Below, in pieces: positions 35,698 through 50,278 of a stretch of 64,000 nucleotides of DNA. Position 1 is the stretch's first letter; every line of letters starts with the position of its first letter. This DNA comes from Serinicoccus kebangsaanensis (lineage in GTDB: Bacteria; Actinomycetota; Actinomycetes; Actinomycetales; Dermatophilaceae). The DNA is taken from assembly GCF_008919445.1 (NCBI RefSeq), contig NZ_VSLG01000010.1, forward strand, positions 1 through 64,000, given 5' to 3'. The position numbers and the translations under genes are program-made. The notes under the pieces were generated by a model, which saw nothing but the letters and a program-made list of their open reading frames with translations, did not search any database and was not told the origin of the DNA.

Positions 35698-36804
35698 GTG
35701 GCACTCACCATCGGAATCGTCGGCCTGCCCAACGTGGGCAAGTCCACGCTCTTCAACGCGCTGACCAAGAACACCGTGCTCGCGGCGAACTACCCCTTCG
35801 CCACGATCGAGCCCAACATCGGCGTGGTGCCGCTCAAGGACGGCCGGCTGGACCGGCTCGCGCAGATCCACTCCAGCGCCAAGGTGCTCCCTGCCACGGT
35901 GAGCTTCGTCGACATCGCCGGCATCGTGCGCGGCGCGAGCGAGGGGGAGGGGCTGGGCAACAAGTTCCTCGCCAACATCCGCGAGGCGGACGCGATCTGC
36001 CAGGTGGTGCGCGCCTTCCGCGACGACGACGTGGTGCACGTGGACGGCAAGGTCAGCCCGCGCGACGACATCGAGACGATCAACACCGAGCTCATCCTCG
36101 CCGACCTGCAGACGCTGGAGAACGCCATCCCGCGGCTGGAGAAGGAGGTCAAGGGCAAGCGGACGGACAAGGCGGTCCTGGACACGGCGCTCGCGGCGCA
36201 GCAGGTGCTGGAGGCGGGGGACACGCTGTATGCCGGTGGCGCCGCGGCGGGTGTGGATGTCGCCGTCGCGCGGCAGCTCGGGCTGCTCACGACCAAGCCG
36301 TTCCTCTACGTCTTCAACCTGGACGAGGACGGGCTGACCGACGAGGCGCTGCACGCCGACCTCGCCGAGCTCGTCGCGCCGGCCGAGGCGATCTACCTGT
36401 CCGCCAAGCTCGAGGCGGACCTCGCCGAGCTCGAGGACGAGGAGGCCCGCGAGCTGCTGGAGTCGGTCGGGGTCACCGAGCCCGGCCTGGACCAGCTGGC
36501 CCGGGTCGGCTTCGACACCCTCGGGCTGCAGACCTACCTCACCGCCGGTCCGAAGGAGTCCCGCGCCTGGACGATCCGCAAGGGTTCGACCGCGCCCCAG
36601 GCGGCCGGCGTCATCCACACCGACTTCGAGCGCGGCTTCATCAAGGCCGAGATCGTCAGCTTCGACGCGCTCGACGAGCTGGGCTCGATGGTGAGGGCCA
36701 AGGAGGCCGGCAAGGTGCGCATGGAGGGCAAGGACTACGTCATGGCCGACGGGGACGTCGTGGAGTTCCGCCACGGGGGAACATCAGGGACGGGCAAGAA
36801 GTGA
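35698..36804 (+). CDS. ychF: YchF/OLA1 redox-regulated ATPase with altered C-terminus
   Basis: This 368-aa OBG-family P-loop protein has [14 protein letters not shown] near residue 9, [17 protein letters not shown] near 70, the NLDEDG variant of the NKxD region (favouring ATP) and a C-terminal TGS domain. The native end in this family is [11 protein letters not shown]. Here it reads VVEFR and then [10 protein letters not shown], because a mobile element has inserted after the CGC of Arg358. The original Phe-Asn-Val-stop lies at 48596-48607. The hybrid protein should still function. GTG 35698 is leaderless. The new TGA overlaps the first GTG of an element gene. Confidence 0.96.
36760..36771 (+). 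repeat. Left attachment core (attL)
   Basis: GTGGAGTTCCGC lies in frame in ychF, encoding Val355-Glu-Phe-Arg358. The identical 12 bp recur at 48584-48595. Sequences on either side of the two copies differ, so 12 bp is the full direct repeat. Confidence 0.92.
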
Positions 36805-37424
36805 TCTCCACCACCATGGCGGCGGAGAGCGTGCTCGCATGGCCCGAGTACGTCTCGCTTAGTGCCGGGGTGGTGTCGGTGGTGATCGCCGTGCTTGCCT
36901 GGCTTGCTGCGCGCAAGAGCACCAACATCGCAGAACGCGCGCAGACCTACGCAGAGGCCCAGCCCACAGAGGCCGCGTGGGACTCGCTGCTGGTTGCAGT
37001 CGCCGCTCTCCAAACCTTCGACCCGAACGGAAACGAGAGGGCGCGGCCCTTGCTGACGGAGCTACGCACTCGAGCAACACTCTTGATTGACCGTCTGCAA
37101 TGGCCTGGCTTCGACCAGTGGATTGCGGCAGAATCCCAGCTTGGCGCAAGTCTGATGGGCGAGGCCTTGGAGCGCGGCGAGGCCCGGCGACGCGACAAGG
37201 GCGGGCTGAGCACAGAGGATCACGTAGAGTTGGGTAGCCAGGCCTGGGCGTGGGTGTCCGCCTTGTTCTCCAACCTCAGACTTCTACGCCGTGAGGGATT
37301 CCAGCCCGACAAGGTGGAACGACTGCGAGTGCTCGCCGTCGATACAGCGATGGCGGTCGCTGAGAGGAACGGCTGGGAGCCGCCTCCGGATAAGGTGCCA
37401 GGTGTCTCGGACCTAGACGATTAG
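36801..37424 (+). CDS. Unknown single-pass membrane protein, coupled to ychF
   Basis: This 207-aa protein is not recognised. It has one N-terminal membrane helix (about 17-36, VSLSAGVVSVVIAVLAWLAA) and a soluble helical domain (LLIDRLQWPGFDQW, LGSQAWAWVSALFSNLRLL). GTG 36801 overlaps the hybrid ychF stop (GTGA), and no Shine-Dalgarno is visible, so translation is likely coupled to ychF. ATG 36816 is the alternative start. Codon use includes AGA, TTG and ATT and is less GC-biased than host genes. It is the only element gene on the plus strand, so it would be expressed from the host promoter. Confidence 0.65.
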   Translation: MISTTMAAESVLAWPEYVSLSAGVVSVVIAVLAWLAARKSTNIAERAQTYAEAQPTEAAWDSLLVAVAALQTFDPNGNERARPLLTELRTRATLLIDRLQWPGFDQWIAAESQLGASLMGEALERGEARRRDKGGLSTEDHVELGSQAWAWVSALFSNLRLLRREGFQPDKVERLRVLAVDTAMAVAERNGWEPPPDKVPGVSDLDD

Positions 37425-37522
37425 CCCCACCCAACTACATAACCCCATCGATCGCGCCTGCCACCACGGCGGCGATGGCTCCCTCGGCGACGCGGCCGCG
37501 GCACCTGCGAGCGGAAGCCTGG

Positions 37523-37717
37523 CTACGGCTGGACGGGGCACATGCGGTCGCTGCGGCTTGCTTCGCAGTCCGTGTTGGAACACGCTCGGACAGCGATCCA
37601 GGTGACCGTGGGGCTGCCGAGCTTGCGGTTCTCCAGCCACTTGACGACGAACGTCTCGGAGGCACACAGGCGGCATGGGGGCGACTGATAGGTGTCGCGA
37701 TTGGATACCTCGGTCAC
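37523..37717 (-). CDS. Small zinc-ribbon-like protein
   Basis: This 64-aa protein is not assigned to a named family. It has CRLC near residue 15 and CSNTDC near 46, the two Cys pairs of a zinc ribbon, flanking a basic stretch. GTG 37717 follows AGGAGAG at good spacing, which supports it as a real gene. It is the last minus-strand gene of the element, 41 nt after the HIRAN-domain gene. Confidence 0.55.
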   Translation of the reverse strand: MTEVSNRDTYQSPPCRLCASETFVVKWLENRKLGSPTVTWIAVRACSNTDCEASRSDRMCPVQP

Positions 37718-37758
37718 GAGAGCTCTCCTGCCAACTACAGCGGCGCGATGGCCGGTGT

Positions 37759-38424
37759 TCAGCCGGGGTAGGTGCCGACCAACTGGACGAGTAGGCGCAT
37801 GTGGAAGCCGGCGTCGCGGTGGTTGACGCGCTCGACCGTGAGCTCGTGGTCGCCCGCCATGATGGGGTGGACATACTCGGTCAGCGGGCGCGGCACGTAA
37901 CCGAGGCGGTGCCCGTCATCGGTGACCAGCACGGCGTGCTCGTCGGTCGGGGTGTCCGGTGCCGCCTGCAAGTGAAGTCGCTGACCCTCGGCGAGGGTGT
38001 CGATACGCGCTCGCTCCTGCTCGGTGAGGTGGCGGATGCCGTGCACGAGGAAGGGCAGCCTGACGGGGCCGGGCTCTGGCATGGGAGTGAGCTCCAGCAT
38101 GTCCACGGCGGACCGGCCACCAGAGCGCGTCAGCACCTCGAACGGTGTAGCCGTCGGCGGGAGGTCGAGCCGGGCGAGGTAGTCGTCGTGGTCGGCGCGG
38201 CGCGGGGAGATAACGCGGTGGCTGAACAGCGGGAACAGCTCGGCGGAGCGGTGGGGCTCGCCAGGGGGCATGCCGGGCAGGGCTCGGGTGATGCCGTCGC
38301 GGTAGGTGAAGGTGTAGCCGTCCTCGTCGTGGATCAGCTCGCCGATGGCTTCATAGTGCCTGGTGTCCGGGTTGCGGCGGGTGACCAACAGGCGCCGTGT
38401 GCTCGTCCGAGTCATCATTGACAT
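37759..38424 (-). CDS. HipA-N-like and HIRAN domain protein
   Basis: This 221-aa protein has two parts. Residues about 10-120 resemble the N-terminal half of HipA-type proteins (YEAIGELIHDEDGYTFTY, AELFPLFSHRVISPRR). Residues about 125-220 form a HIRAN domain (FLVHGIRHLTEQERARIDTL, HLQAAPDTPTDEHAV, GHRLGYVPRPL), a module predicted to bind damaged or stalled DNA ends. The start, ATG 38424, overlaps the end of the HipA-like kinase gene by 10 nt, so the two probably act together. Confidence 0.7.
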   Translation of the reverse strand: MSMMTRTSTRRLLVTRRNPDTRHYEAIGELIHDEDGYTFTYRDGITRALPGMPPGEPHRSAELFPLFSHRVISPRRADHDDYLARLDLPPTATPFEVLTRSGGRSAVDMLELTPMPEPGPVRLPFLVHGIRHLTEQERARIDTLAEGQRLHLQAAPDTPTDEHAVLVTDDGHRLGYVPRPLTEYVHPIMAGDHELTVERVNHRDAGFHMRLLVQLVGTYPG

Positions 38425-39242
38425 AGCGTGCTCACCCTCTCCTGATTCATCGTCAGTATGCCGTCCATGAAGGTACGCGCGACGTCTGACATACCGTCGA
38501 TGTCTGCCAGTATGCCGCGCCAGTGCTCGGGGGGCACATCGGCCACGCGCTGGGGCCACCAATACGCGCCAGACCTCTCTACGGCTATCGCTGCGAGCTC
38601 GAGCAGCGTCCCGCCCTCGGTGAAGTAGCGCGTCCTGCCCGTTTCGCAGAAGGCCGCGAGGCTGCGGGAGAGGCGCCGCTCATCGGTGAGGCCGCTGCCC
38701 AGTGCTGACCCGTGGTCGTAGGCGGGCAGCAGGGTCGTGCGGCGCTGGTCGTCCTCGACCACCGCCCAATTGCCTCCGTGCCGGTCGGTATTGGCTATCC
38801 ATGCGTCCAGGACGAGGTAGCCGGCGAACACCTGGCGAGCGCTCATCCCCTCGCACTGAGGGGGGACGCCGATATCGCTGGTGAGCATGAGGTCGATGGT
38901 TGCGAGGCTGTAGGGCAGGAAGGGTGCCAGATTGCCACCGTGGGTAAGGTCTGTGCCGTCCGGGGTGAGGTTGCGCGAGATGGCTCCCGGCTTGTTGCGG
39001 AAGGCGAGCTCGCACTCGGCCGCCGGTAGGCCGATCCGTTGCGCGAGCCGATAGGCCAGCACCTCTGCGACGTCGCTGTATCGAGGGTGTGCCTTCTCCT
39101 TCCCGGTGCCGAGCCGGGGCTTCCATAGCCACCAGTTGTCACGGTCGGCGCCGGGCGACTTGCTGAGCCATAGCTTGTTCTCGTCTTGGCCGTCCGGCTC
39201 ATCCGTGATGACATACCAGCCGGTGACGTCGATGACCTCCAC
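38415..39242 (-). CDS. HipA-like kinase domain protein
   Basis: This roughly 275-aa protein resembles the C-terminal kinase half of HipA. Key motifs are WLWKPRLG (ATP-binding region), VLDAWIANTDRHGGNW near residue 145 (catalytic Asp and Asn, HipA-type NxDRHxxN) and AYDHGSALG near 174 (metal-binding DxG). It is shorter than classic HipA of about 440 aa; the missing N-terminal part appears to be the adjacent HIRAN-containing protein. GTG 39242 with AGGA close before it is the likely start; an in-frame ATG at 39305 is possible. A toxin, kinase or defence role is inferred. Confidence 0.68.
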   Translation of the reverse strand: MEVIDVTGWYVITDEPDGQDENKLWLSKSPGADRDNWWLWKPRLGTGKEKAHPRYSDVAEVLAYRLAQRIGLPAAECELAFRNKPGAISRNLTPDGTDLTHGGNLAPFLPYSLATIDLMLTSDIGVPPQCEGMSARQVFAGYLVLDAWIANTDRHGGNWAVVEDDQRRTTLLPAYDHGSALGSGLTDERRLSRSLAAFCETGRTRYFTEGGTLLELAAIAVERSGAYWWPQRVADVPPEHWRGILADIDGMSDVARTFMDGILTMNQERVSTLCQ

Positions 39243-39375
39243 TGTCCTAGCCGAGCACGCCGTGCTGCCGAGGGCTCGGACGACGCGCCGACCACCTTGC
39301 CTCACTGCGCCGCCGAGCTGCCCTCTCAGTCGGTGGGCGGTGTGCAGACACCGTGACCGACCAGAGGCTTAGCGT

Positions 39376-40320
39376 CTACCGCTGGGCGACCTCCTGCTCG
39401 GCGAGGGCTGCCTCGCGCTGCTGGAGGGCCTGCCGCTCGCGCTCGCGGCGGGCCTTGACCTCTAGGCGCTGCTCGTCGTGCTCGGCCTGCCACTGTGCGG
39501 CCTCGGCGGCGAGCGCCGCGTGCCGGTCCTGCTGCCGCTGCTCGATGCCGGCGAAGTAGGCGTCGACCTCGGCGGCCCTCTGCTGGGCTGCAGCGTCGGC
39601 GTCGACCATGGTCTGCTCGGCGGCGGCTACCTCGGCCGCTGCGGCCTGCTGGGCGGCCTCCCAGCGGCTCGGACGGGGCGGGGCGTCTTCGTAGGCGGCA
39701 GCGTGCCTGCGCCTCCACAGGGCATCGCTGACGGGCCTGTCGCCCCTGCGGGCCGGACGACCCCGGTTCGCGTCTCGGCGTGCGCCGACCACCATCGAGG
39801 CCAACGTCTCCCCGCTGCCGTGACGATCGGCGAGGCCTTGTTCATAGTCGGCCCTCCAGGTGCGGGCGGCTCCGCGGCGCCGGGATTGGCGGTCGGTGGC
39901 GCGCTGGTCGGACTGTCCGCCCTGGCGCTCCTTCGCGCGGCGGATGCGCCGTAGCCTGCTCGGGATCACGACCACCTCATCGGCCGTCGGCCAGCCGATG
40001 AGCGCCGACGGTGGCGCCTCCGCGACATAGACGATGCCCTCGGGGCCGAGGCGGTCCGCATAGCGGCGGGCAGTCCAGTAGCTCTCGGTCCAGGACATGC
40101 GGCGCTGGTCGCCGGGGAGGCAGCCGCGGTAGAGGGGGATCGGCCCGTCGGGGCGGAGCTCGCGGGCTTCCTGGCGGCCTAGCGTGCGCCAGAGCCGGAC
40201 CCGGGAGCGCCGGTCCAGGCGGTCGCGGCGCACGGTCCAGGCCACCTTCAGCTCCTCCAGCGTCGTCGGGTTGACAGCACTGTCGTCGGTGCTGCCCTGC
40301 TGCTGCTCGTCCGTGCTCAT
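39376..40320 (-). CDS. Possible ADP-ribosyltransferase-like domain protein with coiled-coil tail
   Basis: This 314-aa protein is not firmly assigned. Residues about 55-125 read PIPLYRGCLPGDQ, then RMSWTESYWTARRYADR, then IVYVAEAPPSALIGW and ADEVVVIPSRL. The order Arg-Gly, Ser-Trp-Thr, and a late Glu-Val-Val resembles the R-S-E pattern of mono-ADP-ribosyltransferases and related phage proteins. Residues about 210-314 are Ala-, Glu- and Arg-rich coiled coil. It overlaps the WhiB-like gene by 4 nt. Catalytic activity is uncertain. Confidence 0.5.
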   Translation of the reverse strand: MSTDEQQQGSTDDSAVNPTTLEELKVAWTVRRDRLDRRSRVRLWRTLGRQEARELRPDGPIPLYRGCLPGDQRRMSWTESYWTARRYADRLGPEGIVYVAEAPPSALIGWPTADEVVVIPSRLRRIRRAKERQGGQSDQRATDRQSRRRGAARTWRADYEQGLADRHGSGETLASMVVGARRDANRGRPARRGDRPVSDALWRRRHAAAYEDAPPRPSRWEAAQQAAAAEVAAAEQTMVDADAAAQQRAAEVDAYFAGIEQRQQDRHAALAAEAAQWQAEHDEQRLEVKARRERERQALQQREAALAEQEVAQR

Positions 40321-41216
40321 CGGATCGCCTTCCTGCGTCGGGATCGTGGTCGTGGCTTGCGTGGCTGGGTGCGCTGCCCTCGGTGCCGACCAGCGGGCCG
40401 GCGTGGGATGAGCAGGGCTTCGGATGCGGTGCGCGCGGCCGGGTCGATCGGCAGCGGGCCGGGCTGGGCGTTGCAGTCGCACGACGTGAGCCAGCACGAC
40501 GGGCACGGCCTCTCCTCCCGCTGCGGCCGACCAGCGGGGGGCGGTTGCTCCTGCTCCTGCTGCTCTGTGCCTTCGGGCAGTCGCCACGGGATGCCGGACC
40601 CTCGTCGGGCTCCGAGCTGGTCGGCTACACGTCCAAGCTGCTTGGCGAAGATGCCTGCGTCGCGGGCAGCGCTGCGCAACTCCGCGGCCGTGCCCTCCTC
40701 CTTGCGCAGAGCCTTGCGTAGCCACTCGATGGCCTCGTCATCGGTGACCTTCGGCCTCGTCGCCTTCGGTCGGCCGGCCGGGAGGTGCTGCGTCGGGGCG
40801 GGCTTGCCGAACTCCAGCCCGACACCTGCCCACAAGCCGTGGGCGGGGTGCTGTCGGGCCTCGGTCGCGCACTCGGCCAGGACAGGGCACCGGGCGCACA
40901 ACGCGAGCGCGTGCGGCCGTGCATCGGTCTGCGTGGCGAGGTCGACGAGGTCGACGTCGCTGCCCTGGCACTGCGCCTGCTCGTGCCAGCGGGCGCCGCG
41001 GTGGGGAAGGTCGCCGGAGGTGAGGGCCTCCCAACGTCGCTTCGGCGGCGTCCGCTCGAGCCACGCGGCCCGCTCCTCGTCGGTGAGCGCAGCGACCTCG
41101 GTGACATCCCGCGGCTGCGGGACCGGCTCCTGCTCGTCGCGGGGCGGTGCGACGGCCTCCAGCTCGGCCGTGAGTCGGTCGCTGCTGTCCTGCTGCTCGA
41201 CCTGCTGGGCACTCAT
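40317..41216 (-). CDS. WhiB-like iron-sulfur protein with long C-terminal extension
   Basis: This 299-aa protein has the Wbl cluster cysteines Cys83, Cys107, Cys110 and Cys116 (C-x23-C-x2-C-x5-C) and the turn GLWAGVGLEFG just after. Classic WhiB proteins are about 80-130 aa. This one adds an 80-residue N-terminus and about 160 C-terminal residues with a basic, Gln- and Pro-rich part and a second Cys group (CPSCWLTSCDC near 252). Actinophages also carry Wbl proteins that redirect host transcription. It overlaps both neighbours by 4 nt. ATG 41216 is used. Confidence 0.75.
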   Translation of the reverse strand: MSAQQVEQQDSSDRLTAELEAVAPPRDEQEPVPQPRDVTEVAALTDEERAAWLERTPPKRRWEALTSGDLPHRGARWHEQAQCQGSDVDLVDLATQTDARPHALALCARCPVLAECATEARQHPAHGLWAGVGLEFGKPAPTQHLPAGRPKATRPKVTDDEAIEWLRKALRKEEGTAAELRSAARDAGIFAKQLGRVADQLGARRGSGIPWRLPEGTEQQEQEQPPPAGRPQREERPCPSCWLTSCDCNAQPGPLPIDPAARTASEALLIPRRPAGRHRGQRTQPRKPRPRSRRRKAIR

Positions 41217-41521
41217 CGGACTGCCTCCGTCCAGCCGAGCAGCTCCGAGGCGTGACCGGCCAGCGTGGCTCTGACGGCACCGATGAGCTGGTCGGCCTCG
41301 TCCTGTGGCTGACCGACGATCCAGCCCTGCCACGCGGGTATGCCGCGTTCGCTGGCAGCAACCTCGACCACGGCCATCTGTGCCGGCTCGGCGAGCTCAT
41401 CCCACAACGGGCGCGATGGAGGCCGACCAGCACCCTCGGCGTCCTGCAGGTGCATATCGACGATGCGGCGGAACTGCTCGGCCTGGGGGACCGTGGTCTG
41501 CGGCCTGGGTCTGCGTGGCAT
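41213..41521 (-). CDS. Unknown 102-aa element protein
   Basis: The family is not recognised. The protein is mostly helical by composition, with a basic N-terminus (MPRRPRPQ), an acidic central part (DMHLQDAEGAG, LWDELAEPAQM) and Trp residues near the end. ATG 41521 shares one base with the terminase-like stop, and the gene ends with a 4-nt overlap into the WhiB-like gene. It is part of the tight minus-strand operon 41934 to 39376. Confidence 0.55.
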   Translation of the reverse strand: MPRRPRPQTTVPQAEQFRRIVDMHLQDAEGAGRPPSRPLWDELAEPAQMAVVEVAASERGIPAWQGWIVGQPQDEADQLIGAVRATLAGHASELLGWTEAVR

Positions 41522-41934
41522 CACTGCGGTCCCTTCTCGCGCGCCCACCGGGCATTCGCTGCCCTGCGTGCGCGTTCGCTCGTTGCTGCGGGGATGGCGG
41601 GCTCGGCGCCCTGCTCGTCGGCGTCGTCGGCTGGTAGACCGAGAGCCTTCGTGAGTTGCGCCACCTGTCCACGCTGCGCCCGCATCTCCGCGAGTGCCCA
41701 GTGCCCCACGGGCTGGCCCATGCTCCCGGCCATCTGGAGAGAGGGGGCCTTGCGCAGCTCGTCGGCCAGGACGTCGATCACTCCGAGCACCCGGCAAAGC
41801 TCGTGCAGCAAGGTCACCTCGTGCGGGATCGCGAGCTCGAACCTGCTCGTGACGTCGCGCCAGTAGCGGCGGCCTCGGTCGCTGAGGCCGTCCGGTGGGT
41901 CCGGCGGCTCTGTCGTGCTGGTGAAGGTCGTCAT
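41521..41934 (-). CDS. Terminase-small-subunit-like protein (P27 type, tentative)
   Basis: This 137-aa protein resembles small terminase subunits of the P27 family: GLSDRGRRYWRDVTSRF near 20, HEVTLLHELCRVLGVIDVL near 40, then HWALAEMRAQRGQVAQLTKALGLP near 82, and a C-terminal ARRAANARW motif often seen in actinophage TerS. ATG 41934 follows AGAAGGAG. It starts a four-gene operon. No large terminase is present in the element, so if the reading is right it would redirect a helper phage's packaging. Similarity is moderate. Confidence 0.55.
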   Translation of the reverse strand: MTTFTSTTEPPDPPDGLSDRGRRYWRDVTSRFELAIPHEVTLLHELCRVLGVIDVLADELRKAPSLQMAGSMGQPVGHWALAEMRAQRGQVAQLTKALGLPADDADEQGAEPAIPAATSERARRAANARWAREKGPQ

Positions 41935-41984
41935 CTGCTCCGCTCCTTCTGAGGGAGTTGGGTGGATGTGCAGTGCGTAGATAG

Positions 41985-41999
41985 TTAGCGTGGTGCTAA
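41985..41999. promoter_or_regulatory. Inverted repeat in the element operon promoter region
   Basis: TTAGC (41985-41989) and GCTAA (41995-41999) are perfect 5-bp inverted repeats around 5 nt, about 50 nt before the terminase-like ATG. On the minus strand, TAACTA and TATCTA overlap it and could be a -10 box. The rest of gap 41935-42170 holds a short CCAC-GAT-GTGG repeat and a GGGGG/CCCCC hairpin near 42088-42105, but no gene. Confidence 0.35.
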
Positions 42000-42170
42000 G
42001 TAGTCCACGATGTGGAAATACGGGTGTGAGGGCTGCGTACGGAACGCTGGGCGGTATGGGACCCGGTGGAAGAGGAGCGAGGGCCTCTGGGGGAATCCCC
42101 CCACCCCCGGCCAGGCGGTGCAATGGAGACATTCATCGCCCGGCCGGGGAGGTGGGGGCTGCTCATCGGC

Positions 42171-43211
42171 TCAGTAGTAGAGATCGCGAGCGTCGGCCTC
42201 GTAGTTGACCGCCCCGCTGATTCGCTCCAGGGGCGGCCAGTCCCGGGTCAGGTCGGTGACCTTGAAGGCCTCGCTGCGCTCCAGGCGCCACAGGCTGTAG
42301 CGGGAGGCGAGGTCTCCGGTCTGGTGCAGGGCGCGCCGGGTCTGCATGTCGCACCGGGTCTGACTGGTGTCGGCCATGATCGGGCGTGCCAGATCCAGCT
42401 TGCTGACCTGCGTTGCGGCCTCGGCCAGGGCCGCCGTGATCTTGGCCCGGTCGAGGCGCTGCCGGGGCATGCGGTCGCCGGGAGCAGAGGCCACGTAGGC
42501 ATCGAGGGCCGTTGCTGCTGTCGCGGCCTGGGCGCGAGCCTCGGCGATGGCGGCCAGGGCAGCCTCATGCGCTTCGGCCAAGGCCGCATAGAGTGCCTTG
42601 GTGCGGTCCTCACCGGACAGGGCCTCGGCAGCCCTGTCGTAGTCGCGCCGGGCGCGCTGGGCACGGTCCACGAGGCCGCGGGCGTAGGCCCGGCGCTCTG
42701 CCCGGCGGGCCTCCCAATTGACCGGGGCTGGAGCCTCGGGCATCGGCTCGCCAGACGCCGCCGACGACCTCACGGCGCCCTCGTAGGACGATCGGGCGGT
42801 CGACTCCTCACGGTCGACTCCGCGGACAGCCTCGATGGCAGCCAGGGAAGCCTCGACGGCTTCCTCGACCGCGGTCCACGCCTTGCGCAGCGCGGCCGGC
42901 GTGGCGAGCTGCTGCGAGGCCGGCCGGCCGAGCAGACCTTGCAGCAGCCGCTTGGTGGAGCCGTCGGTGAGGGGGTCGGTGCGCCGGCTGCTGGTCCCGG
43001 CGCGGACACCGAGGCCGCCCTGCTCGACGTTACGGCCGTCGGTGAAGATGGCGTCGGCCTCGCCGGTGTCTGTCGTCATGCCGGCGAGAGGACTGCCGAG
43101 GTCGTCGGCCGCCTGCTCGGGGCGGCCCACGACGTCAGACTCGGCCGTGCTCCAGCCGTCGTCGGAAAGACTGCCGGGATGGCGCTGGGGGCGGTTGGTG
43201 GGGAGTGACAT
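42171..43211 (-). CDS. Unknown coiled-coil protein of the element
   Basis: This 346-aa protein is not assigned. It has a disordered Asp/Ser/Thr-rich N-terminus (about 1-95), then a long Ala-, Glu- and Arg-rich helical region (about 100-290; TAVEEAVEASLAAIEAV, RRAERRAYARGLVDRAQRARRD) likely to be coiled coil, and a globular C-terminus rich in aromatic residues (about 310-346, ending in LYY). ATG 43211 follows GAAGGAAGGA. It might be structural or a scaffold-like protein, but there is no evidence for that. Confidence 0.6.
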   Translation of the reverse strand: MSLPTNRPQRHPGSLSDDGWSTAESDVVGRPEQAADDLGSPLAGMTTDTGEADAIFTDGRNVEQGGLGVRAGTSSRRTDPLTDGSTKRLLQGLLGRPASQQLATPAALRKAWTAVEEAVEASLAAIEAVRGVDREESTARSSYEGAVRSSAASGEPMPEAPAPVNWEARRAERRAYARGLVDRAQRARRDYDRAAEALSGEDRTKALYAALAEAHEAALAAIAEARAQAATAATALDAYVASAPGDRMPRQRLDRAKITAALAEAATQVSKLDLARPIMADTSQTRCDMQTRRALHQTGDLASRYSLWRLERSEAFKVTDLTRDWPPLERISGAVNYEADARDLYY

Positions 43212-43274
43212 TGTGGTGTTCCTTCCTTCGGGGGTGATGCCAACGGCCGGGCGGCCGGCGGCGACTGGGTGGGT

Positions 43275-43547
43275 CTATGCGAGGGCGTCGGCCCTCTCGG
43301 TGGTGACGCGGCGGACTTCTGCCTCGATGAGACCGGCCGGGTCGGTGAGGACGTAGCCGAGCGGGTCGGCGCAGTGGGCGACGCGGTGCCCGAGCAGTCG
43401 GTCCGCTCCGAGCAGGTGGCGCCCGCCACCGTGGGTGTGACGCCGCCGGCACGCTGGGCACTCGATGGCGAAGTACCAACCGCGCCGGTCCTCGCTCCAG
43501 GTGGCGCCTACCAGGGGTGCGGCGGGCGGTTCGGTCGTGGCGCTCAT
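43275..43547 (-). CDS. Small Cys/His protein of the element
   Basis: This 90-aa protein is not assigned. It contains CPAC near residue 30 and HTHGGGRH near 37, a possible zinc site, and Trp-rich GATWSEDRRGWYF before it. ATG 43547 overlaps the upstream stop (ATGA), so the two are coupled. It may be a DNA- or RNA-binding accessory. Confidence 0.55.
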   Translation of the reverse strand: MSATTEPPAAPLVGATWSEDRRGWYFAIECPACRRRHTHGGGRHLLGADRLLGHRVAHCADPLGYVLTDPAGLIEAEVRRVTTERADALA

Positions 43548-44158
43548 GAGCGGGGCCCTTCGAAGTCGACGCCGGACTCCTCGGCGTAGTCGGCGGTGTC
43601 GAGCGCGCGGACGAGCGTCGGCCACCTGGTGCCGTGGTGCTCGGCGATGGCCTGGGCGATGCGCTGCGCGTGTTGGGCGGAGCGGATGACTCGTTCGGTC
43701 TGCTGACCGTGGCCGGTGATGATGGCGACTTCGGTCGGCCGGAGGGTGTCGCCATCCCGGCCGGTGAGGGCGAGGCGGATGACACCAGCCTGATACGCAC
43801 CCTTGACTGCGGGACCGAGGACGCTGCCGACGGTGAGTGCGGCGCGCCGGTGCTCGGCTATCCGGAGCCGGGACGCGAGGCTCTCCCGCTGCTGCCGGGT
43901 GTCGAGCTGCTGGCCGGGCGCGAGGACGGTGTAGGCGACGTTCTCCAGGCCGCCGTGGCGGGTGTCGTCCAGGCCGCCGTCGGTGGAGTCGGGAGCCACC
44001 CACGCGGGGTAGTGCTCGGTGCGGCCCTCGTCGTCGGTGACGGCGACCCACCCGACGAGAGGGGAGTAGTCGTGCCGGAGGGTCTGGCCGTCCTCGGTGT
44101 AGGTCTCGACCACCTGCCATCCGTTCGGGGCGGGGATGAGGCTCTGCGGTGTGGTCAT
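43544..44158 (-). CDS. Unknown 204-aa element protein
   Basis: No family is recognised. The N-terminal third has beta-rich sequence (WQVVETYTEDGQTLRHDYSPL, GWVAVTDDEG). The C-terminal part is mixed and includes VAIITGHGQQTERVI and a late acidic end. ATG 44158 was chosen because AAGGAACGAC precedes it; an upstream ATG at 44317 lies inside the primase gene. It lies directly after the primase gene and overlaps the small Cys/His gene by 4 nt. Confidence 0.58.
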   Translation of the reverse strand: MTTPQSLIPAPNGWQVVETYTEDGQTLRHDYSPLVGWVAVTDDEGRTEHYPAWVAPDSTDGGLDDTRHGGLENVAYTVLAPGQQLDTRQQRESLASRLRIAEHRRAALTVGSVLGPAVKGAYQAGVIRLALTGRDGDTLRPTEVAIITGHGQQTERVIRSAQHAQRIAQAIAEHHGTRWPTLVRALDTADYAEESGVDFEGPRS

Positions 44159-44213
44159 CTGTCGTTCCTTCTCTGTGAGGTGGTGCACGGGCTTGCGAGC
44201 GGTGGGGCTTGCT

Positions 44214-46622
44214 CTAGGGGTAGCGAGGACGCGCGGAAACGTCCGATAACGTTCTTGATTCGCTAGAAGTGGTAGGCACTTGGAGCATTTCGAGCACTTG
44301 GGCGGGCATCTGGACATAACCGCGCGCCTGCGCCATGACGGCTAGCGCACGCTGGCGGGCAGTGCTGAGCGTTAGGTGCCAGGAGCGCGTGCCGTCGTCG
44401 CTGTCGTTGACCATGCGCAGCAGCCGGAGGGCGTGAAGGATGCGGTCAACGGTGCGGGGGTCTTCCCCCAGCCGGCGAGCGAGGGCGTAGCTGGTGCGGC
44501 CGGCTGACTCCCCACCTGCTAGCAGTGCGTCGAGAACGCGAGCGCGGCTCGGTGGCATCGTGTCGGCGGCGACGCGGATGCACAGACGCTCGGCATCCGC
44601 TGGCGTCATCCCGATGAGGACCGCTCCCTGATAGAGCTGGAGCAGCTGCACGATCAGGCGGGTATGCACCTCCCGGTCGTGGGCCTCGGTCGGGTCGCCC
44701 CGGTAGTCGGTCTCGACGGCGGTGCGGGAGAGGGCCACTAGGTCGGCCACGGCCAGGAGCCGTGCCTCCCGACCCTCGTCGAGCTCGACATGTCGAGGCT
44801 GCACGTTCTGCAGCAACCCCCCAACGGCGGCTGTCAGCTCAGCCCGCATACGGGCCAGGCCTCCCTCGGCTGCTGCCGCACGTAGCGCCGCCGCGGCCAG
44901 CTCCTCGGACTCCTCCACGTTGGGGCGGACGATGAGGAAGCGGTCGCCGTACCGGGAGACGACGGAGTGCGCGGCGTCCCATGCGGTCGTCACTGCGCCG
45001 ATGACGGTCGCCCGGCCCTTCCAGGAGACACGGCGGCCGCCCTCGGCGCCGACGGTGCGGGTCCAGGAGCCGTCGTGAATCTCTCGCAGCGCGGCCAGCA
45101 CCTCGGCACGACGCTCTCGGTTCATCGAGAGGATGCTGGTCACGTCTTTGAGCAGGAGCAGCCCGCGGGGACCGAGCTCGTCGAGCAGACCGCCGGTAGC
45201 ATCGGCGGCCCGCTCATTGGCGGGCGTCGCGGACAGGAGCGCCGCCTCACCCGTGAGGGTCGATGCGGACACGGCTCCGAGGTCGGCCAGGGGCGCCATC
45301 GTCTCTGACTTCGTGGCGCCGGAGCCGGAGCAGATGAGCAGCCACGCCGGCGCGTCATCGAGGTAGAGCGAGCCTGCCGCCACAGCGAGGGTGGCGCGCA
45401 TGACGTCGAGGTCGTAGCCGGGTCCGAACCACTGTGCGGTCAGCTCCTCCACTGCGGCCAGGGGCGCGGGCGCGTAGGACTCGACGGGGTGCTCGTCGGG
45501 GTGTGTGTGCCCTCCCAGCTCAGCGCGGGCACGGTCGTGCGTCATCGCGGCGGCACGGTTCCGACCCCAGGCGAGCGCGCCGGCAATCTCGCCGGGCGCG
45601 GGATCACGCTTCGCGCCGACGTTGAGGCGGGTCGTGAACCGCTCGACCAGCGCGGCCTGCGCGGACCGGGCATCCTCGAGCGAGAGGCAGCCGGAGCGCT
45701 GAGCGGCGGCGAGCCGGGTCGCCTGCGCGACCAACCATCCGTGCCGGCCGCCGCTGGTGGGCTTGTCCTTGGCCCAACCCTTGACCATCGTTGCGGCGTA
45801 GGAGCAGGACCGGGCCGGGGTGGGCCAGTGCTCGGCGGGGCACAGCACCTCATCGAGGGCGATCGTGTCTTCCGTGACCTCGGGCACGGCGTACTCGTCG
45901 AGAGTCTCGGCGAGCCGGGTGAGGGTGAGCACGTCTGTGCTCGTCGAGCGCAGCTCGGTCGGGATCGGCTGCCCCTTCCGGTTGGTCGTGCCAGGTGCCC
46001 TGAGCACCCGGTCGAGGTTCCATACCGGGTCGACCTCGCCGCCGTGCATCGAGGCGACGTGCGCGACCAGGCGGCCCCAGCGGCGCGTGAGGGCCTGGGC
46101 GGCGCGGAAGGGCTCCGATGAGGAGCCGTCAGGCCAGTCGGTGCGGCCCGGCTCCTGCTCGATACGCCAGACCGGCTGCAGCCCGTGGCCGGTCATCACG
46201 ACGGCCGCGGGAGCCACTCCGAGCATCATCGTCAGGTCGGCGATGATGTTCTCAGCCGCGGTCCAGGTCGGCAGGGCGCCGGGCTTGACGTCGAGGTCGG
46301 CGTAGATGCAGGCGAGCCGCACGACGTCGCCAGCGGTGCCCTTGCGGCCCTCCGGGAGTCCGGCGCGGACTGGGTTGGCACTGACCCAGCAGTCAGCCTC
46401 TGCCATCGTGGCGGCGATGCCCTTGTCGGCGACCTCGGCCGTCCGCGTGGTGGCGATGAATCGGCCGGCGTCGTCGAGCGTGGCAATGGCGACTGTCTCG
46501 CTGGGAAGAATCCCACGCGCTGCATTCCAGGCGGCTATCGGGCTGGTATTCTGGGACTGTATTTCGGAGGAGATGAGGGCCGCGCTACCTGCCAGGGCGC
46601 GGCCCTTGTCGCTGGCGGTCAC
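44214..46622 (-). CDS. Replication protein: primase-polymerase-like N-terminus and ATPase C-terminus
   Basis: This 802-aa protein has an archaeo-eukaryotic-primase-like N-terminus: CIYADLDVKPG (metal-binding DLD near 110), VMTGHGLQPVW near 143, and DRVLRAPGTTNRKG (204-217). This is the pattern of bifunctional prim-pol proteins on plasmids and phages. A second domain (about 390-620) has a Walker-A-like SGSGATKSE (432-440) and a Walker-B-like GLLLLKDVTSIL (487-498), with SRYGDRFLIVRP near 580. The C-terminal 100 residues contain a winged-helix-like ARRLGEDPRTVDRIL segment. It should replicate the excised element. It overlaps the excisionase gene by 4 nt. Confidence 0.85.
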   Translation of the reverse strand: MTASDKGRALAGSAALISSEIQSQNTSPIAAWNAARGILPSETVAIATLDDAGRFIATTRTAEVADKGIAATMAEADCWVSANPVRAGLPEGRKGTAGDVVRLACIYADLDVKPGALPTWTAAENIIADLTMMLGVAPAAVVMTGHGLQPVWRIEQEPGRTDWPDGSSSEPFRAAQALTRRWGRLVAHVASMHGGEVDPVWNLDRVLRAPGTTNRKGQPIPTELRSTSTDVLTLTRLAETLDEYAVPEVTEDTIALDEVLCPAEHWPTPARSCSYAATMVKGWAKDKPTSGGRHGWLVAQATRLAAAQRSGCLSLEDARSAQAALVERFTTRLNVGAKRDPAPGEIAGALAWGRNRAAAMTHDRARAELGGHTHPDEHPVESYAPAPLAAVEELTAQWFGPGYDLDVMRATLAVAAGSLYLDDAPAWLLICSGSGATKSETMAPLADLGAVSASTLTGEAALLSATPANERAADATGGLLDELGPRGLLLLKDVTSILSMNRERRAEVLAALREIHDGSWTRTVGAEGGRRVSWKGRATVIGAVTTAWDAAHSVVSRYGDRFLIVRPNVEESEELAAAALRAAAAEGGLARMRAELTAAVGGLLQNVQPRHVELDEGREARLLAVADLVALSRTAVETDYRGDPTEAHDREVHTRLIVQLLQLYQGAVLIGMTPADAERLCIRVAADTMPPSRARVLDALLAGGESAGRTSYALARRLGEDPRTVDRILHALRLLRMVNDSDDGTRSWHLTLSTARQRALAVMAQARGYVQMPAQVLEMLQVPTTSSESRTLSDVSARPRYP

Positions 46623-46948
46623 GTCGACTGCACCGCCTTGGCGCCAGAGGCGAAGATGGCGGCGAGCCGGTCACGCTGGGCTGGAGTCAGCACGGGGGCG
46701 GCGTCGACCAGGGCGGCGACGTGCTCGTCGATCGGGTCGACGTCGCGGGCAACTGGTCGGACGAGGGCTTCGACGTCCTCGCGGCGGCGGAAGCGGGTGC
46801 GCCCTCCGACCTTGTAGGCGGGGAGCTGACCAGCGGAGACGAAGCGATCGAACGTGCGGAGGGACACGCCGGCCAGGGCCGCGCCGGTGTGACGATCCAG
46901 TTCTAGCTCGGCGAGCTGAGGGGGTGATGTAGCGGTCTGCGGGGCCAC
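46619..46948 (-). CDS. AlpA/HTH_17-type DNA-binding protein (excisionase-like)
   Basis: This 109-aa protein has a MerR-like helix-turn-helix of the AlpA/excisionase class: GVSLRTFDRFVSAG, then LPAYKVGGRTRFRRREDVEAL (about 28-64). Such proteins guide excision or activate replication genes of integrative elements. ATG 46948 starts a two-gene unit with the primase gene. The repeated GCATCTCGC sites immediately upstream are its likely target. Confidence 0.8.
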   Translation of the reverse strand: MAPQTATSPPQLAELELDRHTGAALAGVSLRTFDRFVSAGQLPAYKVGGRTRFRRREDVEALVRPVARDVDPIDEHVAALVDAAPVLTPAQRDRLAAIFASGAKAVQST

Positions 46949-46988
46949 GATGGCGCCTCTCGATGCGGACTTCCTGCACCGCGTCCCG

Positions 46989-47079
46989 GCATCTCGCTAC
47001 CGGCGGTGCGGGGAGGTCGCATCTCGCGCCTGACCCTCGCGGCTACTTGGGCCGCTGACCGAAAGGGAAGGCATCTCGC
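46989..47079. repeat. Three direct repeats GCATCTCGC (candidate iterons/operators)
   Basis: Perfect 9-bp copies lie at 46989-46997, 47019-47027 and 47071-47079, starts 30 and 52 nt apart. They sit in the 250-bp gap before the excisionase-primase unit. This could be a replication origin read by the prim-pol protein, or operators for the AlpA-like protein. The 30-nt spacing of the first two (near three helical turns) favours protein binding on one face. Confidence 0.5.
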
Positions 47080-47164
47080 CCTCGACCATTCGGCTGATAC
47101 AAAGCATGCACGGCGCTCGCAAGAATGTCAAGCAGCGTCATCGCGAGTCAAAAGGGATCTAACC

Positions 47165-47190
47165 CACTAAGAATGCTCACGAATAGTGAG
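47165..47190. repeat. Nested inverted repeats after the integrase gene
   Basis: CACTA (47165-47169) pairs with TAGTG (47184-47188), and CTCAC (47176-47180) pairs with GTGAG (47186-47190), within a locally AT-rich 100-bp tract. It may be the integrase terminator or part of a replication origin. Nothing else is visible in 47080-47198. Confidence 0.35.
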
Positions 47191-47198
47191 TCTGCAGG

Positions 47199-48560
47199 TC
47201 AGGAGCGCCATTCAATATCGACGGTCCCGTCATTCGGGCGGAACTTCCGCCCACGCTCGGCGGGGTTGAGGGTGACGGCGGCGAGCAGGTCGACCACCTC
47301 GCGCCTGCTGCCGAGGGGGAGGGCGTCGAATGCCTCACCGGGAGCTGGGGCGGTCAGTAGGGCGGCCAGGCTGGGGCCTGTCAGGGCGGCGCGAGCGGCC
47401 TCGGCTGCGCTGAGCTCGGCCCGTACCTTCTCGCTGGCGACGGCGAAGCGGCGGCCGTCGATGTGGCCGGCGTCGTAGTCGGCTTCGACCTGCGCGAGCC
47501 GGGAGCGGAGGCGGGCAACGTCGCTCGCGGCCTGCGCTGCCCGGCCTTCGTCCTTGTGCGGCGCCAGGGCCTCGGCTGCGTCGGGACGCTTGAGTCGGGC
47601 GCGGATCACGGCCGTGACGTAGGCGTCGATGCTCGCACCCATCCTCGTGATGTGCCCGCCCTCGGGGCAGCGGTAGCGGCCTCCGGAGTGCGAGCGCACC
47701 CGACCACCGCACACGCCGCACCGATACAGGCCCGAGCCGAGGTGCTTCCGGTCGGTCCCGGCGCGGTTGGTGATCCGCCGCGGGTCGGTGAGGCGTGCCT
47801 GCACGCTGTCGAAGGTGGCTTCGTCCACGATCGCCTGCCAGGTGCCCGCCTGGCCGGTCACCTCGCCACGGTAGACGGCGCGGCCTGCATACCGGGGATT
47901 CGTGAGGATCGTGCGGACCGTCGACGGATTCCAGGCCGCGCCTCGCCGCGTGGTGTGGCCCTGCTCGGCGAGCCACACCGTGATCCCTCGTAGGGAGTCC
48001 CCAGCGTCGAAGCGGGCGAAGATGGCGCGGACGGTCTCGGCCTCGTCGGGCACGACGTCACCGGCCACCGTGTAGCCGGTCAGTCGGACCCCCGCGGGTG
48101 GCTTGCCCCGGTCGGCCCTCTGGGCAGCGGCGCGCTTCTGGCGGGCGGACTTGCGCTCCACCTCGGCGCGGGCGACCGACGCCTTGATGCGGGCGAACAG
48201 TCGACCACCGTCGGTCGACAGGTCTGCCTCACCGTTGGCGGTCACCAGCATGAGGCCGCGCTCCTCGGCCGCGTCTATCCAGTCCTCGAGCTGGCGCGGC
48301 TGGCGGGTGAGCCGGTCTAGGTCCCAGCACACGAGGGCGTCGAAGCGGCCCGCGGCGTAGTCCTGCACCATGCGCTCGTAGGCAGGGCGGGCGACGGTGC
48401 GCTTGCTCGCGCTGACCGAGTTGTCGGTGTAGGTCTCGACCACCTCCCACCCTCGATCCGCCGCGATGCGCTCGCAGTCCTCGCGCTGCCGAGCGACGGC
48501 CAGGCGTTCCCCCGTGGCGTCCAGGGAGACGCGGAGGTAGATGGCGGTGCGTGTGGTCAT
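47199..48560 (-). CDS. Serine recombinase (integrase of the element)
   Basis: This 453-aa large serine integrase has the catalytic domain first, with nucleophile Ser12 in YLRVSLDATGE and DRLTRQPRQLEDW near 84. A recombinase domain follows (about 160-260: GYTVAGDVVPDEAETVRAIF, NPRYAGRAVYRGEV), then a zinc ribbon near 293 (YRCGVCGG, RYRCPEGG) and a coiled coil (about 350-400). It would cut at GTGGAGTTCCGC. It lies 24 nt from the right end of the element. A minus-strand TATCGT (48573-48568) 7 nt before the ATG suggests a leaderless start, with the promoter reaching across the attachment core. Confidence 0.93.
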   Translation of the reverse strand: MTTRTAIYLRVSLDATGERLAVARQREDCERIAADRGWEVVETYTDNSVSASKRTVARPAYERMVQDYAAGRFDALVCWDLDRLTRQPRQLEDWIDAAEERGLMLVTANGEADLSTDGGRLFARIKASVARAEVERKSARQKRAAAQRADRGKPPAGVRLTGYTVAGDVVPDEAETVRAIFARFDAGDSLRGITVWLAEQGHTTRRGAAWNPSTVRTILTNPRYAGRAVYRGEVTGQAGTWQAIVDEATFDSVQARLTDPRRITNRAGTDRKHLGSGLYRCGVCGGRVRSHSGGRYRCPEGGHITRMGASIDAYVTAVIRARLKRPDAAEALAPHKDEGRAAQAASDVARLRSRLAQVEADYDAGHIDGRRFAVASEKVRAELSAAEAARAALTGPSLAALLTAPAPGEAFDALPLGSRREVVDLLAAVTLNPAERGRKFRPNDGTVDIEWRS

Positions 48561-48583
48561 ATGTTGTACGATAGCGTAACGAG

Positions 48584-48595
48584 GTGGAGTTCCGC
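48584..48595 (+). repeat. Right attachment core (attR)
   Basis: GTGGAGTTCCGC here is identical to 36760-36771 in ychF. It is followed by TTCAACGTGTAG, which restores the canonical ychF ending. Confidence 0.92.
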
Positions 48596-48607
48596 TTCAA
48601 CGTGTAG
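48584..48607 (+). pseudogene. ychF: Displaced 3' end of ychF
   Basis: Read in the ychF frame, these 24 bases encode Val-Glu-Phe-Arg-Phe-Asn-Val-stop, the conserved C-terminus of actinobacterial YchF. It was cut from the gene body by the insertion. Joining 36771 to 48596 rebuilds a 361-aa YchF. Confidence 0.92.
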
Positions 48608-48647
48608 CTCCTGACGCGGTCGCGGGCGATGGCTCGGCGTGCCGCCC

Positions 48648-48717
48648 GACGTGCACGATGTCGATCACTCGGCGCTGACCTGCGGTGGGGTATGCCGCGC
48701 ACGGCATCGTGCACGTC
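48648..48717. repeat. 13-bp inverted repeat between ychF remnant and MetAP gene
   Basis: GACGTGCACGATG (48648-48660) and CATCGTGCACGTC (48705-48717) are perfect 13-bp inverted repeats with 44 nt between. Each arm contains the palindrome CGTGCACG. It may be the original ychF/MetAP bidirectional terminator or a protein-binding pair. The rest of 48608-48751 shows no gene. Confidence 0.5.
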
Positions 48718-48751
48718 CGTCGGCACGTGAGGGGCCGGTCGGGGAGGGGGC

Positions 48752-49531
48752 TCAGCGACGAAGAGCGGGTGCGGTGAGCACCTCGGCACCGTCGTGGGTG
48801 ATGGCGATGGTGTGCTCGCTGTGCGCGGTCCGGGCACCGGTCGCGCTGCGCAGCGTCCACCCGTCGGCGTCGACGACGAGCCGGTCGGTGTCGGCCATGA
48901 CCCAGGGCTCCAGCGCGAGCATCAGACCCGGGCGCAGCCGGTAGCCGCGGCCGGGTCGCCCGGTGTTGGCCACGTGCGGGTCCTGGTGCATGGTCGTCCC
49001 GATGCCGTGCCCGCCGAACTCGAGGTTGATCGGGTAGCCGGCGTCGGAGAGCACGGTGCCGATCGCGTGGGAGAGATCACCGATGCGGGCTCCCGGTCGC
49101 GCGGCGGCGATGCCGGCGGTGAGCGCACGCTCGGTGGTGTCGATCATCCGCTGGTCCTCGGGGGAGCGGGGCCGGCCGACGACGAAGCTGATGGCCGCGT
49201 CGGCGGCGACGCCGTGGAGACTGACCGCGAGGTCGAGGGAGAGCAGGTCCCCGTCGGCCAGCCGGTCGTCGTGCGGCAGCCCGTGCAGGACGGCGTCGTT
49301 GACGGAGGTGCAGATCCAGTGCCCGAACGGGCCGTCGCCGAAGGAGGGCGCATAGTCCACGTAGCAGGACTGCGCCCCGGCCTCGAGGATCATCTCCTGG
49401 GCCCACCGGTCGATGTCGAGCAGGTTCGTGCCGACCTGGGTGCGCTCCTTGACGGTCCGGAGGATCTCGCCGACGAGGCGTCCGGTCCGGCGTGCCTGGT
49501 CCACCTGGGTCGGGGTGAGGATCTCGATCAC
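48752..49531 (-). CDS. map: Type I methionine aminopeptidase
   Basis: This 259-aa enzyme removes the N-terminal Met from new proteins. Metal ligands appear in order: Asp in LSLDLAVSLHG, Asp in AADAAISFVV, His in GGHGIGTTMHQDPHV, Glu in LALEPWVM and Glu in HSEHTIAI. It has the cytosolic type I length and no zinc-finger extension. GTG 49531 lies 6 nt after a minus-strand TATAGT (49543-49538), a leaderless arrangement. It diverges from an XRE regulator gene 46 nt away, which is not the usual secY-adk-map context, so this is probably an additional copy. Confidence 0.93.
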   Translation of the reverse strand: MIEILTPTQVDQARRTGRLVGEILRTVKERTQVGTNLLDIDRWAQEMILEAGAQSCYVDYAPSFGDGPFGHWICTSVNDAVLHGLPHDDRLADGDLLSLDLAVSLHGVAADAAISFVVGRPRSPEDQRMIDTTERALTAGIAAARPGARIGDLSHAIGTVLSDAGYPINLEFGGHGIGTTMHQDPHVANTGRPGRGYRLRPGLMLALEPWVMADTDRLVVDADGWTLRSATGARTAHSEHTIAITHDGAEVLTAPALRR

Positions 49532-49577
49532 CCAATAACTATACCGTCCAGATCATCCCGGTACTAGAATCCCGGAC
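49532..49577. promoter_or_regulatory. Divergent leaderless promoters of map and the XRE gene
   Basis: In 46 bp, minus-strand TATAGT (49543-49538) serves map and plus-strand TAGAAT (49565-49570) serves the XRE gene, 6 and 7 nt from their start codons. TACCG (49542-49546) and CGGTA (49559-49563) form an inverted repeat between them, a natural operator for the XRE protein. Confidence 0.6.
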
Positions 49578-49844
49578 ATGGTGAGACTTCCGCTCGCGCC
49601 GGAGGAGATCGAACGCGGCAAGCGCCTCGGCGCCCTGCTCCGGCTGGCCCGTGGCCCGCGCTCGATCCTCGACGTCGCGCTCGACGCCCGCGTGTCGCCC
49701 GAGACGCTGCGCAAGATCGAGACGGGCCGGGTGGCCACGCCGGCGTTCTCGACGGTCGCTGCCGTCACGGGCGTGCTCGGACTCTCCCTGGACGAGGTGT
49801 GGGCGCAGGTGACCGCTCCCGCGGACGACGTCTCCCGGGTCTGA
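49578..49844 (+). CDS. XRE-family helix-turn-helix regulator
   Basis: This 88-aa protein is a single HTH domain: RGKRLGALLRLARG, then SILDVALDARVSPETLRKIETGR with the recognition helix, and VAAVTGVLGLSLDEVW. It has no effector domain. It diverges from map across a 46-bp promoter region and probably controls itself and map (inference). ATG 49578 is leaderless. Confidence 0.85.
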   Translation: MVRLPLAPEEIERGKRLGALLRLARGPRSILDVALDARVSPETLRKIETGRVATPAFSTVAAVTGVLGLSLDEVWAQVTAPADDVSRV

Positions 49845-49891
49845 CAGCACACCTGTCAGGCCGTCGGCGTCATCGGCGCCGTGGCTGGGGC

Positions 49892-50278
49892 TCAGCCGAC
49901 GGCGGACCGGCGCTCGCGGCGCACCGCGACGAACGAGCGGACGCCGAGCACGACATACCCCACCAGCAGCACGAAGGTGACGGTGCCGGAGATGACGGCC
50001 AGCGGCCGCTCGGCCTCGCCCGCGACCAGGTCGCCCAGACCCATGACGTTGCGCAGCGTCCCGAGGGCTCCGACCACGGCGACCACCAGGGCCGCGTGGA
50101 TCCAGACCTTGGGGTTGCTGCGTCCCAGCACGCCGCAGACCGCCAGCACCACACCCAGGATGGCCGGGATGAGGGCCGTCCAGCTGGACATGCCGGCGGC
50201 GATCCAGCCGATCACCCCCACCGCGACGAGCAGGACGCCCAGGGTGACGGTGGTGCGCGGCATGGACGAGTTCTGCAT
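49892..50278 (-). CDS. Small four-helix membrane protein, unknown function
   Basis: This 128-aa protein has four membrane segments (about 9-28, 31-50, 56-80, 92-115) and a basic C-terminus (RSFVAVRRERRS). No family is recognised with certainty. ATG 50278 follows AAGGAGCACC. It stands alone between the XRE gene and the MFS gene. Confidence 0.7.
   Translation of the reverse strand: MQNSSMPRTTVTLGVLLVAVGVIGWIAAGMSSWTALIPAILGVVLAVCGVLGRSNPKVWIHAALVVAVVGALGTLRNVMGLGDLVAGEAERPLAVISGTVTFVLLVGYVVLGVRSFVAVRRERRSAVG

Follow-up and report, generated by a model that had tools for sequence, protein, structure and literature searches.

How can a conserved housekeeping gene stay open when a mobile element lodges in its last codons? 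The question is raised by ychF in a 64,000-nucleotide stretch of Serinicoccus kebangsaanensis DNA (contig NZ_VSLG01000010.1, positions 1 to 64,000; the whole stretch is referred to here as the window), where an inserted element, measuring 11.8 kb between its two predicted crossovers, separates the gene from its native end. Very probably, the explanation as a whole is that a satellite-like element with a ychF-targeting integrase carries a phage-type attachment site (attP) of which one arm is coding sequence, and that its first cargo gene is coupled to ychF. Features and their coordinates are listed in Table 1; handles beginning with L and G denote loci and genomes.

The sequence GTGGAGTTCCGC is present in two exact copies, at 36760-36771 and 48584-48595, and there is no third exact copy in the window (permitting one mismatch there are three matches, against 0.67 expected). 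A preliminary description of this DNA had claimed a 12-bp repeat and a native Phe-Asn-Val-stop end (FNV) stranded 11.8 kb away, and exact copies and translation confirm both; the last ten residues of the present gene (His-Gly-Gly to Lys-Lys) are element-derived. The FNV C-terminus is also found in the solved YchF 1jal and in a chain of 8kie. The same description spoke of a 12-bp core. The 12 shared bases are real, but they are not a bare crossover core: they correspond to the predicted GT of the crossover plus the Glu-Phe-Arg codons, and they are shared because attP and the chromosomal site (attB) both keep these.

That a serine integrase inserted the element into the 3′ end of ychF and left the gene open is borne out by an empty site in a sister genome, by the same layout in other genomes that have related integrases and by viral attP sites. 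When the window flanks are joined (35698-36771 plus 48596-50400) they match the sister genome G007, which lacks the element, as an uninterrupted empty site, at 93.9% over 1104 bases (ychF) and then 88.2% over 1264 bases (the right-hand neighbours), the second block sitting about 190 bases further on; the two YchF proteins match at 97% over residues 2-359. Relatives with a native-type ending are plentiful, 27 of the 30 genus loci (L001-L030) ending in FNV or FAV; the exceptions are the genome of the window, G009 (TGIPSGGKK) and G011 (HS). No element-free relative shares the ychF tail of the window, which is unique among the tails read. A wider survey of the family with the native YchF C-terminus as query matched 179 of 186 genomes, and in 21 of these the gene did not align to the FNV end (one more, G145, is broken by a contig end). 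Eighteen of the 21, and thus 18 of the 179, have replaced tails unlike FNV, and the other three have the FNV-like ends FAL, FAL and FSN.

The attachment sites have the layout expected of such a reaction. Placed from the centre of symmetry, the exact crossover would be the GT of the second Val codon; a GT at this position is not evidence by itself, because the search for stranded ends required Val before Glu/Asp. Stranded ends supplied 58 left arms (all element classes), and left and right arms, read by eye, are mirrored outward at positions 5, 8, 9, 16, 19, 20, 21 and 23 and carry a common binding-type motif (...AACSTCTGG). Intact attP is present beside the integrase in IMG/VR viral contigs: that of L202 encodes VEFR-SGITSGAKR-stop, and further intact sites lie beside integrases in L195 (FQVTSGSGKA) and in L198 and L201 (HR). 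Compared as sequences, attB and attP are unlike but have a short core in common, and the half-sites of attP are inverted. Scanning viral contigs with one attP-like pattern returned solely the contig of L202 again (L254), and a second pattern gave four matches (L255-L258) that were read and judged to be chance.

By its domains and by the att layout tested, the integrase is classed as a large serine recombinase, and it would be expected to recombine these sites; its start codon lies 23 bp from the predicted crossover. Enzymes of this kind recombine in one direction and are reversed by a directionality factor, a role for which the excisionase-like helix-turn-helix protein is at most a candidate. 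A single scan of named genomes with this integrase as query fetched 50 loci, and a ychF end or tail is present at 32 of them, a count that tolerates up to two substitutions in the short end motif, so that one or so of the matches may be due to chance, and a total in which L089 and L090, the same match on one contig read from both ends, are counted twice. The hosts include Lentzea, Sinomonas, Nocardia, Kocuria, Rothia, Corynebacterium, Cutibacterium, Microbacterium, Brevibacterium and Arachnia. A tree of 75 full-length integrases (at least 380 aa aligned; partial integrases and the repeats L031, L032, L033, L034, L047, L066 and L090 were excluded) contains a clade of 43 rows with support 100/100, and 35 of these have a tie to ychF, which is an end or tail in the locus or, in the viral contigs L195, L198, L199, L201 and L202, an attP-like site. 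Among the other eight rows, L118 repeats L115 exactly, L099 stops within the att core, and L092 and L196 are cut at a contig end. On the whole tree the ychF tie requires 9 changes against about 25 in shuffles, with rows lacking a found site scored as 'none' even where there is little flank. The earlier suggestion of an evolved target choice gains support both from this clade and from the coding signature in the tails described below.

Five plasmid records matched the integrase, at 37% identity or less. Phage records carrying a related integrase number 193; five of them (Caron, Gretchen, SuMoo, Kumao and prophiGD54-2; L205-L209) were read, and the stretches covered contain no VVEFR-like site. 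In L061 and L077 the integrase open reading frames (ORFs) are split or cut to partial, which suggests that elements with such broken integrases are no longer self-mobile.

Three features were seen in the replacement tails. The full set comprises 65 non-FNV tails, 61 of them distinct in DNA; some of these came from a search with a tail-bearing protein, in which matches were ranked by their likeness to that query. A less biased set of 35 distinct arms was drawn from the family survey and the integrase-fetched loci, excluding tails known only from listings for the tail-bearing query. First, the tails converge on a dibasic end, in 52 of the 61 distinct arms of the full set and 28 of the 35 of the less biased set (13/18 in the family survey alone, 18/20 at integrase loci alone), against 20 of 477 control ORFs chosen by length and third-position GC in large loci, and 3/61 and 0/61 in the shifted frames of the arms. 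Second, the dibasic pair lies 5 to 9 codons from the Arg. Third, variation follows the codon phase: over bases 11-37 of the less biased 9-aa tails (n=19) the entropy is 0.49 bits at codon positions 1-2 and 1.15 at position 3 (permutation 0.0043), and over the same bases of the less biased set at all lengths (n=35) it is 1.14 against 1.55 (permutation 0.0063). The left arms (n=58) have no codon phase (1.78 against 1.80 at position 3). Differing codon pairs in the tails number 438 synonymous and 456 not. The right attP arm thus appears, from its codon-phase variation and dibasic convergence, to behave as coding sequence, a feature that is new here.

Three loci of family f20 (L189, L211 and L214) keep the residue pattern without the attP DNA motif, on fragmentary contigs; their tails may have been domesticated. 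A further f20 tail (L248, ISPTSAAKK) stands outside all counts. AlphaFold2 models of the window YchF and 14 relatives had a mean pLDDT (predicted local distance difference test score) of 45, were uninformative on the tail and were set aside.

The overlap of the tail with the gene behind it is a second property of the arm. Among 32 tails ending in TGA, 17 begin an ORF of at least 100 aa, with ATG or GTG, inside the stop codon (one CTG start is left out, and two of the 17, L171 and L221, are near-copies), where base composition would by a rough estimate give about 3 to 4 of 32. Four of the overlapping first ORFs are HsdM-like by sequence (L107, L127, L135 and L228), two of them (L127 and L228) also by Pfam. 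Elsewhere the first gene comes soon after the tail; in L102 and L104 this gene is the integrase, which starts 9 bases past the ychF stop. From 51 first ORFs listed, 30 were scanned with Pfam, a hand-picked sample of mostly long genes, several akin to each other, and 21 of these 30 are of defence type: 16 are restriction-modification, methylase or GmrSD genes, and five more are AAA/OLD-like (L227), Ppl-like (L131), DrmD-like (L103), ApeA (L186) and HEPN (L082). The other nine are Exonuc_VII_L, zinc ribbon, RelA_SpoT, PF00144, DUF499, NYN, a recombinase and two without a match. Defence-type cargo, the coding attP arm and the overlap with the first cargo gene all go beyond the preliminary description.

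We therefore propose the following course of events. A large serine integrase would recombine attP with an attB formed by the last codons of ychF (Asp-Val-Val-Glu-Phe-Arg-Phe-Asn-Val). The right arm of the attP palindrome repeats the Glu-Phe-Arg codons and stays in frame beyond them, so that integration would swap Phe-Asn-Val for an element-encoded tail. This arm would evolve as coding sequence, with small or polar residues followed by Lys-Lys (or Arg), and the host gene would thereby keep a C-terminus that is acceptable. These bases would, in many elements, double as a ribosome-binding and start signal (...AAGAAGTGA), through which the first cargo gene, often one of anti-phage defence, would be read from the ychF transcript by stop/start overlap and co-expressed with ychF. 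The tails may converge for the sake of YchF stability or termination, or of cargo translation, and the dibasic end may benefit YchF. According to the available part of Weber et al. 2020 (PMC7246954), bacterial C-termini are enriched in Lys and Arg, and charged and polar last residues, Lys foremost, raise protein level in Mycoplasma pneumoniae; a small-residue tail ending in Lys-Lys may therefore cap YchF safely. A broader proposal, for and against which the balance is about even, is that the attP arm has three jobs, as integrase half-site, as a dibasic cap that keeps YchF expressed and as the start signal tying defence cargo to ychF, and that the 3′ end of ychF is a dedicated docking site for mobile defence islands.

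It is possible, if less probable, that the AAGAAG before the stop is simply the spacer of the ribosome-binding site of the cargo gene (GGAGG...AAGAA-GTG), with Lys-Lys as a by-product. The frequent start inside TGA stops, four times of an HsdM-like gene, fits this, as does an intact FNV end in L242 (G624) with GGGGGGTAAGAAGTGA close behind it, like a remnant of tail and start signal. The tails ending in TAG or TAA make no overlapping start, and they are nonetheless dibasic in 23 of 30 distinct arms (15/20 in the less biased set), beside 29/31 (13/15) for those ending in TGA; the Lys/Arg swaps moreover use unlike codons, such as AAGCGG (L180) and AAGAGG (L217). Codon phase adds little here, since in the 9-aa TAG/TAA tails of the full set (n=13; 0.78 against 1.25 bits, p 0.051) the contrast is suggestive at most, which leaves some room for a spacer. 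We think a neutral tail unlikely; on that view any frame left open across the integrase-bound arm would suffice, and the likeness among tails would reflect no more than shared descent and the constraint of integrase binding. The arms do share a binding-type motif and are served by homologous integrases; against neutrality, the mirrored part of the palindrome does not extend to the dibasic end, and codon-phase variation is seen in the right arm and not in the left. An ordinary prophage remnant, inserted in ychF once and unspecifically, would account for the terminase small subunit-like gene and the phage primase, but is highly improbable given an intact attP and given that, across many genera, related integrases recur with the same site and type of tail.

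Several observations weigh against the coding, ychF-directed attP arm that we favour. Three rows of the integrase clade (L096, L098 and L109) have no ychF end within about 10 kb of flank on each side, and a fourth (L200) has none in shorter flanks (0.7 and 3 kb). The tail HSATTK also occurs in G031, where the integrase match lies about 12 kb off and falls outside the clade. Nine of the 61 distinct arms have no dibasic end (HS twice, HSATTK twice, SGLASR, SGLASGGKKA, IGSTSAGAK, FGSTSTSKH and TGLTSGGNK), as is true of 5 of the 18 tails in the family survey alone. The arm counts are not independent events, because the arms are related by descent, and both the dibasic and the codon-phase statistics ignore this kinship. 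Finally, the tail-bearing query enriches for such tails and could mimic codon phase; the pattern persists in the less biased subset.

Table 1. Features of the ychF locus and of the inserted element in the window.
Feature	Position	Strand	Basis
ychF, end replaced	35698..36804	+	YchF-GTPase_C E 6.6e-37; host-derived up to the predicted crossover 36760-36761
attL, 52 bp around the predicted GT crossover 36760-36761	36735..36786	.	palindrome predicted; intact attP in viral contigs L195, L202
element-derived tail of ychF and TGA stop	36772..36804	+	tail in none of the other 29 genus loci
first cargo gene, 207 aa	36801..37424	+	GTG start overlaps ychF TGA
HIRAN-domain protein, candidate defence protein PDC-M03B	37759..38562	-	HIRAN E 4.6e-8; PADLOC E 6.4e-67
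HipA-like kinase, candidate defence protein PDC-M03A	38415..39305	-	HipA_C E 1.7e-8; PADLOC E 3e-77
ORF, true start uncertain	39376..40725	-	no Pfam/PHROGs match; PADLOC query 39379-40236
WhiB-like regulator	40317..41333	-	Whib E 4.9e-9
terminase small subunit-like	41521..42132	-	phrog_1496 E 6.8e-13
ORF	42171..43211	-	no match in Pfam, PHROGs, PADLOC scans
ORF	43544..44317	-	HD_5 alone, under Pfam cut-off; no PADLOC match
phage-type DNA polymerase/primase	44214..46622	-	phrog_2478 E 1.1e-74
helix-turn-helix protein, excisionase-like candidate	46619..46948	-	HTH_17 E 2.7e-6; phrog_1840 excisionase E 0.00048
large serine recombinase (integrase), 453 aa	47199..48560	-	Resolvase E 3.3e-32, Recombinase E 1.4e-21; phrog_95 integrase E 8.6e-100
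attR, 52 bp around the predicted GT crossover 48584-48585	48559..48610	.	same basis as attL
stranded native ychF end, VEFRFNV-stop	48584..48607	+	second GTGGAGTTCCGC copy continuing as TTCAACGTGTAG

In gene content the element, termed satellite-like here, resembles phage-inducible chromosomal islands (PICI), satellites that a helper phage mobilises, with an integrase, a primase and a packaging (terminase small subunit, TerS)-like gene; none of the 10 element ORFs scanned with PHROGs, a part of the total, is a capsid or tail gene. Among ten element proteins besides the integrase, only the helix-turn-helix protein has relatives at the loci analysed, in five of them (tblastn, E 1e-6). PDC-M03A and PDC-M03B lie next to each other, so that both parts of a candidate defence system are present, the pair being taken as defining that system from the PADLOC model names. 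The first cargo gene has weak matches to the PADLOC '1TM effector' (E 0.00073) and to phrog_2525, of unknown function (E 0.00017). An inverted repeat with 26-bp arms, 88% complementary, lies just past the stranded ychF end at 48638-48727 of the window, and is possibly the original ychF terminator, now displaced by 11.8 kb.

The ends of ychF vary in other ways. In L074, L079, L086 and L162 the FNV-like tails (FAL, FSN) are followed by a CCTCTG-like motif, perhaps the mark of another class of elements, which would mimic the native end instead of capping it. The bases CGTTAT follow the ychF end, in place or stranded, in L027, L074, L077, L085 (at 8148), L190, L193, L219 and L220, several with an ORF tentatively read by eye as HigB-like; a small FNV-restoring unit may also use the ychF site. 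Stranded FNV ends lie in series behind one ychF in L135 (12207-19997) and L076 (three stranded ends), as if insertions had been stacked. Partial ychF copies of about 150-160 C-terminal residues sit beside the full gene in L230 and L231 (G703) and L232 (G794), in G703 near ORFs read by eye as transporter- and reductase-like. A diverged ychF-like C-terminal fragment with the tail HGVTSGSGKK occupies a second place in G019 (L064, about 5350-5508), with a restriction-like ORF (by eye) behind it, while the genome's own ychF ends in FNV.

These results mark the 3′ end of ychF as a place to seek defence genes in Actinobacteria, put att sites of many genera on offer, and yield, in the replaced ends, a natural series for testing the role of a protein's last residues. 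The literature searched (excluding subscription journals and supplements) gave no description of this ychF site, nor of a serine integrase that combines a target at the end of a conserved housekeeping gene with a coding attP arm and with cargo for defence. In the available part of a review of integrative mobilizable elements (PMC5704250), site-specific elements with serine recombinases disrupt dispensable genes and gene ends are typical of tyrosine integrases; in contrast, the family described here occupies a conserved housekeeping gene, the end of which it recodes. Mobile DNA also adjoins ychF in Streptococcus pneumoniae (PMC8637289, PMC10383233, PMC6375853), where prophages and satellites use an intergenic attB upstream of the gene (PMC8637289, PMC10383233) and, in the available parts of these two papers, no change of the YchF C-terminus is described. 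The adjacent HipA-like and HIRAN genes, a candidate defence pair, resemble HipA-HIRAN modules as presented in the available parts of PMC8262856 and PMC11706625 and the PADLOC system PDC-M03.

The integrase resembles large serine recombinases of the phiC31 and Bxb1 kind in its Resolvase and Recombinase domains, short common core and inverted half-sites, and is unlike them in its target, the 3′ end of a housekeeping gene that is conserved, and in recoding that end. Recoding of the end of a target gene is itself known in kind: at icd of E. coli, the attP of e14 and phage 21 brings a replacement 3′ end of the gene. There too the element supplies the end and the gene stays open, but by means of a tyrosine integrase and a longer homologous gene end, whereas here a serine recombinase is paired with a tail that is short and unrelated and converges on a dibasic end. 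The serine recombinases of staphylococcal cassette chromosome mec (SCCmec) likewise have a conserved gene, rlmH, as their target and act at its 3′ end; they differ in being other recombinases.

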